From NCBI GenBank assembly GCA_029858345.1, contig JAOUFG010000021.1, positions 1 to 32,972 on the forward strand: a DNA stretch of 32,972 nucleotides, in the 5' to 3' direction. Below the pieces are notes generated by a model, which saw nothing but the letters and a program-made list of their open reading frames with translations, was not told the origin of the DNA and did not search any database. This stretch comes from Phycisphaerae bacterium (GTDB lineage: Bacteria; Planctomycetota; Phycisphaerae; Sedimentisphaerales; Anaerohalosphaeraceae). Positions within the stretch are counted from its first letter, which is position 1. Each line of letters starts with the position of its first letter. The translations under genes and the position numbers were made by a program. Positions 4,737 through 13,223 of this stretch are shown piece after piece.

Positions 4737-4766
4737 TCCACAGATTACACCGATTTCTCTGATTTG

Positions 4767-4832
4767 TCATGCAGGACTTGATCCGGCATCCAGCCGTTAA
4801 CGCCCTGGACCCCGGCTCAGAGGCCGGGGTGA
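4767..4832. repeat. interspersed palindromic repeat (HAGLDPAS type)
   Basis: The sequence reads CHAGLDPASS in one frame, a peptide typical of a dispersed palindromic repeat found in many bacterial genomes. It ends in a perfect 8-bp stem, ACCCCGGC (4809-4816) / GCCGGGGT (4823-4830), with a six-base loop. It lies between the convergent DUF4056-like and small membrane protein genes, so the hairpin might also help end transcription, though no T-tract follows. Confidence 0.6.
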
Positions 4833-4845
4833 CATGCGTTGTGAA

Positions 4846-5103: not shown

Positions 5104-5120
5104 ATAGGCCATTCCTCACT

Positions 5121-5808
5121 ATATCGTAAGTTTTAAAGTTCAATCCAAAACAGTCTGAAAGACTGATGTATTATAGCCCAGGGCAACGCCCTGGGTTTAG
5201 GAGTCACAAAAATAATTATCGCCCTGTAAGGGCAACGTAATCAATCCCACAAATAACGTTCATCGTATTCAACCTTGTACTTTCGCAAAAATTCAAGAAA
5301 TTCTTCTTTGAATGTAACCGTACGATGATGCTCTTCCTGTCCGGCGATATACCGCTTAACCGCTTCCACTCTGGAACTGCTGACAGAGAATGCACCATAC
5401 CCGTTCTGCCAGGCAAATTTTTCATACATACCGCCTTTTGTTTTGAGCCATCGACTGCTGGGACGTTTGATTCCTTCAATGTATTTTGCCAAAGTTACGG
5501 TCCTTGGCAATGTTGATAGAATATGTATATGGTCAGCAGTTCCGTTAATCAGACAAGGAATGCCCTCCATTTGTTTTATGGTCCCAGCCATATAGGCATA
5601 AAGTTGTGGTTCGATGTCTGTTTCGATAAATGGATAGCGTTCTTTGGTACTGAATACAATGTGAACATACTTTTGAGCTAATGATTGTGCCATTTTATTA
5701 TCATGCCCCTTCAGGGCATTCTCCTAATTGGGTGCATCTTAAACCCAGGGCGTTGCCCTGGGCTATATTACAACGGCCTTTCAGGCCGATTAAAACTTAT
5801 CGTATAAA
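5121..5808. mobile_element. intact RAYT element with nested inverted hairpins
   Basis: The transposase gene at 5241-5693 is flanked by two inverted sets of three hairpins. Left set, outside to inside: CAGTC-TGAAA-GACTG (5151-5165), CCCAGGGC-AAC-GCCCTGGG (5177-5195), GCCCT-GTA-AGGGC (5221-5233). Right set, inside to outside: ATGCCC-CTTCA-GGGCAT (5703-5719), CCCAGGGC-GTT-GCCCTGGG (5744-5762), CGGCC-TTTCA-GGCCG (5774-5788). Both outer flanks share AAGTTTTAA in inverted orientation (about 5128-5136 and its complement near 5791-5799). This is the layout expected of a REP-associated Y1 transposase with its own REP-like substrates. Confidence 0.85.
5241..5693 (-). CDS. REP-associated Y1 (IS200-like) transposase
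   Basis: This 150-aa protein is full length for the Y1_Tnp/RAYT family. The HUH motif is DHIHIL (His55, His57) and the catalytic tyrosine candidate is Tyr115 in KRYIAGQEEHH, with Gln and His after it as usual. Conserved WQNGYGAFSVS and a C-terminal YDERYLW are also present. Such enzymes cut single-stranded DNA at hairpins by a 5'-phosphotyrosine link, and RAYTs are thought to move REP sequences rather than whole insertion sequences. The flanking hairpin sets are the probable substrates. All key residues are intact, so it is likely active. The start codon sits nine bases from the ATGCCC hairpin, which may regulate expression. Confidence 0.92.
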   Translation of the reverse strand: MAQSLAQKYVHIVFSTKERYPFIETDIEPQLYAYMAGTIKQMEGIPCLINGTADHIHILSTLPRTVTLAKYIEGIKRPSSRWLKTKGGMYEKFAWQNGYGAFSVSSSRVEAVKRYIAGQEEHHRTVTFKEEFLEFLRKYKVEYDERYLWD

Positions 5809-5824
5809 AACAAGCTGAAGCTTG
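5806..5824 (-). terminator. possible intrinsic terminator of mfd
   Basis: On the minus strand CAAGC-TTCA-GCTTG is followed directly by TTTTT, 10 bases after the mfd stop codon. The stem is short, so termination may be weak. Confidence 0.4.
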
Positions 5825-5834
5825 AACTCTTACT

Positions 5835-9113
<3,279 letters not shown>

Positions 9114-9124
9114 AATATCAAAAA

Positions 9125-9154
9125 CGGCCTGAAAGGCCGATGTAATTTAGCCCA
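9125..9154. repeat. left-end fragment of a second RAYT element
   Basis: The hairpin CGGCC-TGAAA-GGCCG (9125-9139) is followed by GATGTAATTTAGCCCA. This matches the left end of the intact element (14 of 16 bases after the hairpin) and then breaks off inside the CCCAGGGC arm at about 9154. The stem differs from the intact copy by paired changes while the loop TGAAA is kept. Confidence 0.8.
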
Positions 9155-11711: not shown

Positions 11712-11831
11712 TCATATAGCAACACTATCCCTTGAGACCAAATACTGTTTAATTTCCGACTCAATAAACGGGGGGCGATCTTTGGTGCTGAACACGATAT
11801 GGACATACATTTGGACTAATGATTGCGACAT
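11712..11831 (-). pseudogene. truncated RAYT transposase, N-terminal 39 codons
   Basis: The ORF begins MSQSLVQMYVHIVFSTKDRP and matches the first 27 or so residues of the intact transposase (MAQSLAQKYVHIVFSTKERY). It diverges after FIESEI and stops at codon 40. The HUH motif and the catalytic tyrosine are missing. It ends 21 bases before the start of the PQQ-like gene, which may therefore use the old transposase promoter. Confidence 0.85.
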
Positions 11832-11839
11832 TTTATATT

Positions 11840-11922
11840 GCCCTTTCAGGGCGTATTTTTTATTAGGATACCTTTGGACCCAGGGCGTTGCCCTGGGCTA
11901 TATTATATTGGCCTTTCAGGCC
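11840..11922. repeat. right hairpin module of the second RAYT element
   Basis: Three hairpins lie in the same order as at the right end of the intact element: GCCC-TTTCA-GGGC (11840-11852), CCCAGGGC-GTT-GCCCTGGG (11879-11897) and GGCC-TTTCA-GGCC (11910-11922). The module ends two bases before the pfkA stop codon. Confidence 0.85.
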
Positions 11923-11924
11923 AT

Positions 11925-13113: not shown

Positions 13114-13133
13114 AACAGCGGTTTTTTTATACT

Positions 13134-13213
13134 GCCCTTTTAGGGCGATAATTTATTACTGGCCTTATGCCCAGGGCGTTGCCCTGGGCTAAGTCATATT
13201 GGCCTTTCAGGCC
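13134..13213. repeat. solitary hairpin module without transposase
   Basis: Three hairpins in the same order as in the RAYT right end: GCCC-TTTTA-GGGC (13134-13146), CCCAGGGC-GTT-GCCCTGGG (13170-13188) and GGCC-TTTCA-GGCC (13201-13213). No transposase fragment is attached. It begins 10 bases after the tkt stop codon and looks like a non-autonomous REP-type unit mobilised by the RAYT. Confidence 0.8.
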
Positions 13214-13223
13214 GCATTACGCG

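Follow-up and report, generated by a model that had tools for sequence, protein, structure and literature searches.

Mirrored three-hairpin modules around a Y1 transposase gene of subclass 1.2 type and their overlap with the Acido-Lenti-1 RNA family

What kind of element is a short transposase gene that lies between two sets of small hairpins arranged as mirror images? The question is raised by a locus in a window of 32,972 nucleotides (the whole stretch of DNA analysed here) from a Phycisphaerae bacterium. At positions 5151-5788 a gene for a 150-aa Y1 (HUH) transposase is enclosed by two copies, inverted relative to each other, of a module H1-H2-H3, with H1 outermost. The left module, on the plus strand, begins with the terminal hairpin H1 (CAGTCT-GAA-AGACTG, 5151-5165), the first base of which is the first conserved base of the module, followed by the H1 tail ATGTATTATAG, a spacer with a TA-type motif (5166-5176), by H2 (CCCAGGGC-AAC-GCCCTGGG, 5177-5195), by H3 (GCCCT-GTA-AGGGC, 5221-5233) and by the H3 tail AACGTAAT (5234-5241), which is continued by the adjoining stop codon TGA of tnpA. 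The tnpA gene, of subclass 1.2 type as judged from the protein sequence, occupies 5241-5693 on the minus strand. The right module, also on the minus strand, possesses H3 (GCCCT-GAA-GGGGC, 5705-5717) directly upstream of the tnpA start, H2 (5744-5762) and the terminal H1 (CGGCCT-GAA-AGGCCG, 5774-5788). H1 and H3 are of a common design, stem-GAA-stem, with GTA replacing GAA in the left H3.

The initial annotation had described two sets of three hairpins in mirror order around the gene, and this is borne out by the coordinates, the mirror score and the folding. The inverted arms at 5148-5214 and 5725-5791 are 81% complementary, and the two sides align in mirror fashion with a score of 75, a value that 5000 dinucleotide shuffles did not approach (highest 28); one of 5000 such shuffles gave at least two triloop hairpins on each side. 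With DNA parameters each side folds, on either strand, into H1/H2/H3 (z -4.8 to -5.7), and none of 200 shuffles was equally stable. Some finer points need adjustment. The loop, given as TGAAA, is indeed kept, and is precisely a GAA triloop with a T-A closing pair. It had also been ascribed to the inner hairpins; the left one carries GTA, and the right one has either a T.G closing pair or a loop of 5 nt. The change from CAGTC to CGGCC in the outer stem is present and taken alone is a single comparison, so that the weight falls on the genome-wide test below.

The initial annotation named the enzyme a RAYT, a name that does not stand. The window protein matches Pfam Y1_Tnp (80.8 bits) and narrowly passes NCBIfam transpos_IS200 (56.1 bits, cut-off 55), and it fails NCBIfam REP_Tyr_transpos (20.2 bits, cut-off 80). 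Its motifs DHIH, WQ and YIAGQEEHH form the signature of subclass 1.2 (DH[IV]H, WQ, Y---Q--HH). RAYT identity was rejected on the failed REP_Tyr_transpos model and on Y---Q--HH in place of the NP motif after the tyrosine. By its sequence the protein is a TnpA_Y1 of subclass 1.2 type and not a classical RAYT. Among 80 homologues Y...Q..HH is present in 78, DH[IV]H in 77 and WQ in all 80, and a conserved C-terminus is visible in protein alignments. An AlphaFold2 model of the window TnpA (pLDDT 87.6, pTM 0.76) found the IS608 and ISDra2 transposases as best structural matches (2vic, E 1.7e-9), with the REP transposase 4er8 only at rank 30 (E 5.7e-5). According to the parts of Quentin et al. 2018 (PMC6006769) consulted, subclass 1.2 is low-copy, has REP 'no' in Table 1, generally lacks typical terminal IS200 structures, is without IS properties and occurs mostly in Cyanobacteria and Bacteroidetes.

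The close tnpA copies of this genome share only 74-85% identity with the window gene and hence give no sign that tnpA itself moved recently. Homologues were absent from phages at E 1e-15 and occurred in two plasmid records, thus giving no strong sign of phage or plasmid carriage. The genome further contains four TnpAs of 35-41% identity (C132, C95, C162 and C57), those at C95 and C162 adjoined by matches to the Rfam family RF01687, and three longer Y1_Tnp frames of 225-227 aa from some other subclass (C190, C79 and C96).

Further copies of the module are present in the window. A second, truncated element on the minus strand comprises the first 32 codons of a tnpA (11736-11831) and an H1-H2-H3 module (11838-11923). 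A solo H1-H2-H3 module (13126-13214, minus strand) lies beside the transketolase gene, and a remnant with H1, its tail and the beginning of H2 is found at 9122-9154 on the plus strand. Several modules sit directly 3' of genes, in the window those of pfkA and tkt. Across the whole genome (198 contigs, 3.0 Mb) an exact match to CCCAGGGCNNNGCCCTGGG occurs at 25 sites and the backward control pattern at none; related copies number at least 36, since BLAST with the 116-nt right end as query gave 36 matches. Chance palindromes were rejected as an explanation on this control pattern and on the shuffles. The distance from H1 start to H2 start is 26 bases in all 35 parsed modules. Information content does not exceed 0.43 bits at any of 30 positions beyond H1 and rises at its first base; because conservation begins there, with almost none outside, H1 is the tip of the module.

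The initial annotation had proposed compensatory change with a kept loop, and the genome-wide alignment gives a clear excess, in H1 and H2 only. It comprises 33 of the 36 BLAST matches, leaving out the remnant at 9122-9154 (no H2), C117 and C96:34389 (both with no H3 in place). Standard pairs fill 96.8% of the pair cells, 40 pair cells are changed on both sides (12.0 +- 2.9 in shuffled alignments), and the covariation score is 0.233, against 0.098 +- 0.010 for shuffled alignments and 0.002-0.074 for slid structures. The number of pairs with a double change is only 7 (4.9 shuffled; 39 of 500 shuffles as high). Covarying pairs make up 5 of 6 in H1 and 2 of 8 in H2; H3 is nearly fixed, with no double change among the 33 modules. 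H1 stems are of the types GGCC, CAGTC, TGCAC, CGCAC and GGTC, and H2 occurs as CCCAGGGC/GCCCTGGG and as CCCAGCCC/GGGCTGGG.

Other repeats are present in the surroundings. Both H1 hairpins of the window element are bordered on their outer side by an imperfect inverted repeat of 17 nt, TATATCGTAAGTTTTAA (5120-5136 and 5790-5806), which may be a former hairpin that received the element. A repeat of ~70 bp at window 4763-4836 has many copies across the genus. A dispersed repeat GTAAG[N]GTTCA is found 15-45 nt beyond several H1 tips (window 5811-5833, C56, C57, C96, C146, C160, C179 and C112:29802); in the window it is followed by a CAAGCTTCAGCTTG hairpin, and at C112 it forms a small inverted-repeat element of its own.

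The same flanks surround homologous genes in other phyla. A genome scan yielded 80 homologue loci, found via shared peptides, from Bacteroidota, Verrucomicrobiota, Ignavibacteria, Planctomycetota, Kiritimatiellota, a Desulfococcaceae and others; 78 of them possess enough flank. Perfect GAA triloop hairpins reading toward the gene are present upstream in 44, downstream in 52 and on both sides in 36 of the 78, against 1, 0 and 0 of 68 control positions at 1 kb and 1, 0 and 0 of 55 at 2 kb. Conversely, the perfect GAA triloop is missing on one or both sides of 42 of the 78 loci, which counts against a role of TnpA in spreading the hairpins. GAA outnumbers TTC loops upstream (54:6) as well as downstream (76:11), so that hairpin orientation relative to the gene is kept on either side. 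In a second set, 40 loci from 40 genomes of the phylum Planctomycetota, GAA loops occur on both sides in 13 of 40 loci (0 of 38 at 500 nt), and the loops GTA, GCA, GGA, AAC and AAA are frequent too. Counting any triloop, both sides carry one in 34 of 40 loci in this set (control 3 of 38) and in 63 of 78 in the homologue set (control 3 of 68). The upstream flank of a locus resembles its own downstream flank with a median score of 43, against 17 for mismatched pairs, and the own downstream flank ranks first in 39 of 118 loci, against 2 of 109 for controls at 600 nt. Flank similarity moreover tracks protein similarity (Mantel r 0.40; 0 of 500 permutations as high). The mirrored three-hairpin layout is general to this transposase clade across several phyla. 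At one locus (L231) a cobalamin riboswitch is present at 1637-1884, ~190 nt from a TnpA gene.

A conserved motif accompanies the hairpins. With inner hairpins from the 80 loci aligned on the loop (n=70, perfect hairpins required), positions +11 to +14 show A (0.93), T (0.76), C or A (0.96) and A (0.66). A search for loop and motif that made no demand on pairing found all five stem pairs in 44 of 80 sites near tnpA, against 8 of 511 distant ones. Modules of the own genome mostly have TAA or TAT at one and the same distance behind H1 and H3. H1 and H3 are thus one kind of hairpin, with a stem of ~6 bp, mostly a GNA triloop, and R-T-[AC]-A at a fixed distance from the loop. The tetranucleotide GT[AG]G is absent from the 5' foot of the hairpins in the own-genome modules, and no base 5' of H1 is conserved there. 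The layout, as the initial annotation had suspected, is accordingly unlike that of GTAG REPs, with its R-T-[AC]-A tail on the 3' side. R-T-[AC]-A is a candidate guide or cleavage motif.

One part of the module is already filed in Rfam, a point that the initial annotation had missed. In the direction leading away from the gene, H2+H1 matches RF01687 (Acido-Lenti-1 RNA; gathering score 37) over all 46 positions of the model, with 40.1 bits in the right end (5744-5788, plus strand), 39.7 bits in the truncated element (11879-11923) and 39.1 bits in the solo module (13170-13214); the left end contains an RF01687-like stretch of 34.5 bits, below the gathering score (5151-5195, minus strand). No other Rfam family matches in the window with E <= 1. 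The own genome yields 71 RF01687 matches at E <= 1, 18 of them above the cut-off, and 14 control genomes yield none above it. Among 214 genomes of the same phylum RF01687 is present in 53 (E <= 1e-4) and TnpA in 50 (profile E <= 1e-20), both in 45, RF01687 alone in 8, TnpA alone in 5 and neither in 156 (Fisher p 3.5e-32). In a second sample, 194 genomes from the phylum to which a Kiritimatiellota genome belongs, 28 have both, 9 RF01687 alone, 10 TnpA alone and 147 neither (p 7e-18). The RF01687 counts of both samples were obtained with Infernal's stricter filters, and leaving out the two centre genomes changes the co-occurrence little. It may in part be due to genomes that carry much mobile DNA, and RF01687-positive genomes that have no TnpA match (8 of 53 and 9 of 37) count against a spread driven by TnpA.

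At 21 of 40 TnpA loci an RF01687 match (E <= 0.05) is present no more than ~1 kb away. In the second sample at least 13 of 36 TnpA matches have an RF01687 match within 500 nt, a lower bound and not a sample, the 22 RF01687 matches compared having been picked for sharing a contig with TnpA. RF01687 is found at E <= 1e-3 in 14 of 16 transposase-bearing genomes from other loci. A scan of 20 of the 80 loci at gathering score placed it above the cut-off in four (L093, L113, L134 and L156), hence the Rfam model covers only part of the diversity of the module. One genome (G068, L315-L320), in which no subclass 1.2 match reaches E <= 1e-20, has 16 matches to RF01687; most are dimers that carry additional conserved arms on the outside.

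Modules also occur in forms that lack a gene. Inverted dimers with the H3s inside are present about ten times in the own genome (188-196 nt), and 15 more of 181-207 nt occur in six other genomes. In two own pairs, C83 and C175, the H1s face each other; these are near-identical copies with similarity running on into the flanks, and therefore give no element boundary. Tandem arrays of a hairpin-H2 unit have a period of 64-75 and up to 7 copies. Arrays with a period of 50-100 nt were detected in 17 of 240 flank stretches and in none of 144 control stretches; by inspection 12 of the 17 array-bearing flanks, at 9 loci, consist of the hairpin-H2 unit. Several of the statements on dimers, arrays and missing duplications are readings of the sequence by eye. 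The dimer at C54 is missing at all 8 congener loci compared and the solo module beside tkt at all 5, so that both were most simply gained by the own lineage. Intergenic DNA of the congeners is too diverged to have provided exact insertion junctions. For the window element itself one of 5 congener loci (G004, L277) keeps both neighbours adjacent without tnpA, a weak case of an empty site.

We consider it likely that the window contains one autonomous copy of a REPtron/REPIN-like family of mobile elements run by a TnpA_Y1 of subclass 1.2. Studied relatives of this enzyme cut single-stranded hairpin DNA beside the hairpin and on one strand only, and IS200/IS605 elements use a guide tetranucleotide. 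By analogy with IS608, ISDra2 and E. coli TnpA_REP, TnpA would bind the GAA-strand hairpins in single-stranded DNA, cut at or near R-T-[AC]-A beside the hairpin, and then join the ends; it could thereby move or copy modules and dimers in trans, and we infer that modules move by TnpA. Since H1 and H3 point the same way on a single strand, processing may act on the module as a unit, each module then being a tiny IS200-like element with H1 and H3 as left and right ends. Repeated joining of module ends would give tandem arrays, and inverted pairs of modules would present the enzyme with a substrate on each strand, regardless of the direction in which the replication fork moves. For E. coli TnpA_REP the sections of PMC8266576 consulted report action on REP, not on its complement, with cuts at CT 5' or 3' of REP. 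More tentatively, it is possible, though we would not presume it, that the mobile unit is the hairpin module and not the gene, that RF01687 is one lineage of ends, and that the 'REP-less' subclass 1.2 is a REPIN-like system spanning phyla.

Three other explanations have to be weighed against this element run by TnpA. The repeats might be MITEs of the usual kind, mobilised by a DDE transposase from a different family, with tnpA merely lying between two of them or captured. Such an enzyme probably does carry dimers in the Desulfobacterota genome G271 (149 RF01687 matches among 150 candidates scored), where the dimers are enclosed by a larger element, present in many copies and bounded by inverted tips GGGCG[CT]ATTTACAA (L295-L314); 9-bp target duplications surround this larger element, exact at 3 of 11 tip pairs and close at the others, and thus point to another transposase. 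The own dimers C56 and C57 likewise lie inside another repeat, between GTAAG-GTTCA-like inverted tips. As a general account MITEs are nonetheless unlikely: mirrored hairpins around tnpA are the rule in several phyla, own-genome conservation begins at H1 with nearly none beyond, and no target duplication is visible by eye at the bare dimers C54, C112, C160 and C24 or at three in G231, insertions that may be old. A domesticated system, in which TnpA moves nothing and the hairpins near genes terminate transcription, stabilise mRNA or provide single-strand processing sites, would suit the divergent tnpA copies, the modules placed directly after genes such as pfkA and tkt, and the lack of IS properties given for subclass 1.2 in the consulted parts of Quentin 2018 (PMC6006769). 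We regard it as improbable, since modules missing in all compared congeners, near-identical arrays and many-copy dimers imply a fairly recent spread.

Finally, RF01687 might be a functional structured RNA, which the transposase has co-opted or with which it hitch-hikes. Rfam curation speaks for this, as does the rating 'y' (probably) as RNA for Acido-Lenti-1 in Table 1 of Weinberg 2010 (PMC2864571, as far as consulted), and both strands fold. More recent texts give Acido-Lenti-1 as a count (PMC10059132) or suggest that its ncRNAs may regulate protease genes in Tannerella and that 'little is known' (PMC13298647, 2026). Yet RF01687 covers no more than the outer portion of a larger module, and its copies are paired inversely, lie on both sides of tnpA, are lineage-specific in place and track tnpA by genome, which leaves a functional RNA very improbable. 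If the reading as a TnpA element holds, RF01687 would be a DNA transposon end read as RNA. Compensatory change and membership in a database are no proof of RNA, and an orphan Rfam 'RNA' of 2010, still taken for a regulator, gains a candidate explanation.

How does the element compare with known systems? None of five typical hairpin strings occurred in the full-text literature searched, which excludes all preprints and the majority of subscription papers, and no title or abstract there connected ends of this type with subclass 1.2 or RF01687. The nearest published layouts, judged from the parts consulted, are those of PMC3733652 and PMC2817692. TIRYTs/TIRtrons (Di Nocera 2013, PMC3733652, in part) are alike in having a Y1 gene between terminal inverted repeats, some of them self-complementary; 20 of 26 TIRYTs belong to subclass 2.1 according to the sections of Quentin 2018 (PMC6006769) consulted, and their common motif GGGGWSAS was not seen in the present ends by inspection. 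RF01687 is filed in Rfam as an sRNA gene, whereas here H2+H1 is part of a putative transposon end. IS200/IS605 elements (IS608, ISDra2) share the enzyme class, the fold and, within one module, the two hairpins on the same strand; their element ends are subterminal hairpins on the same strand and lack inverted repeats, whereas the ends of the whole element here are mirror images. Subclass 1.2 as described in the parts of PMC6006769 consulted shares DH[IV]H, WQ, Y---Q--HH and a length of ~150 aa, and is given there as generally lacking typical terminal hairpins; here hairpins are the rule, and the carriers include Planctomycetota, Verrucomicrobiota, Ignavibacteria and others. A subclass to which the 2018 description denied REPs and IS features thereby gains a candidate cognate DNA substrate.

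The closest likeness is to REPtron/REPIN systems with their RAYT, in which a Y1 gene is bordered by inverted palindromes; these are also scattered through the genome and form inverted doublets. The window element has the layout of a REPtron, and inverted doublets of the palindromic unit, as in REPINs, are present in the own and six other genomes. The differences are an enzyme of class 1 where RAYTs belong to class 2, the lack of a GTAG foot, three hairpins per end, a candidate motif 3' of the GAA-strand hairpin and tandem arrays in direct orientation. On the best reading, a REPtron/REPIN-like system of single-strand elements is new for subclass 1.2.
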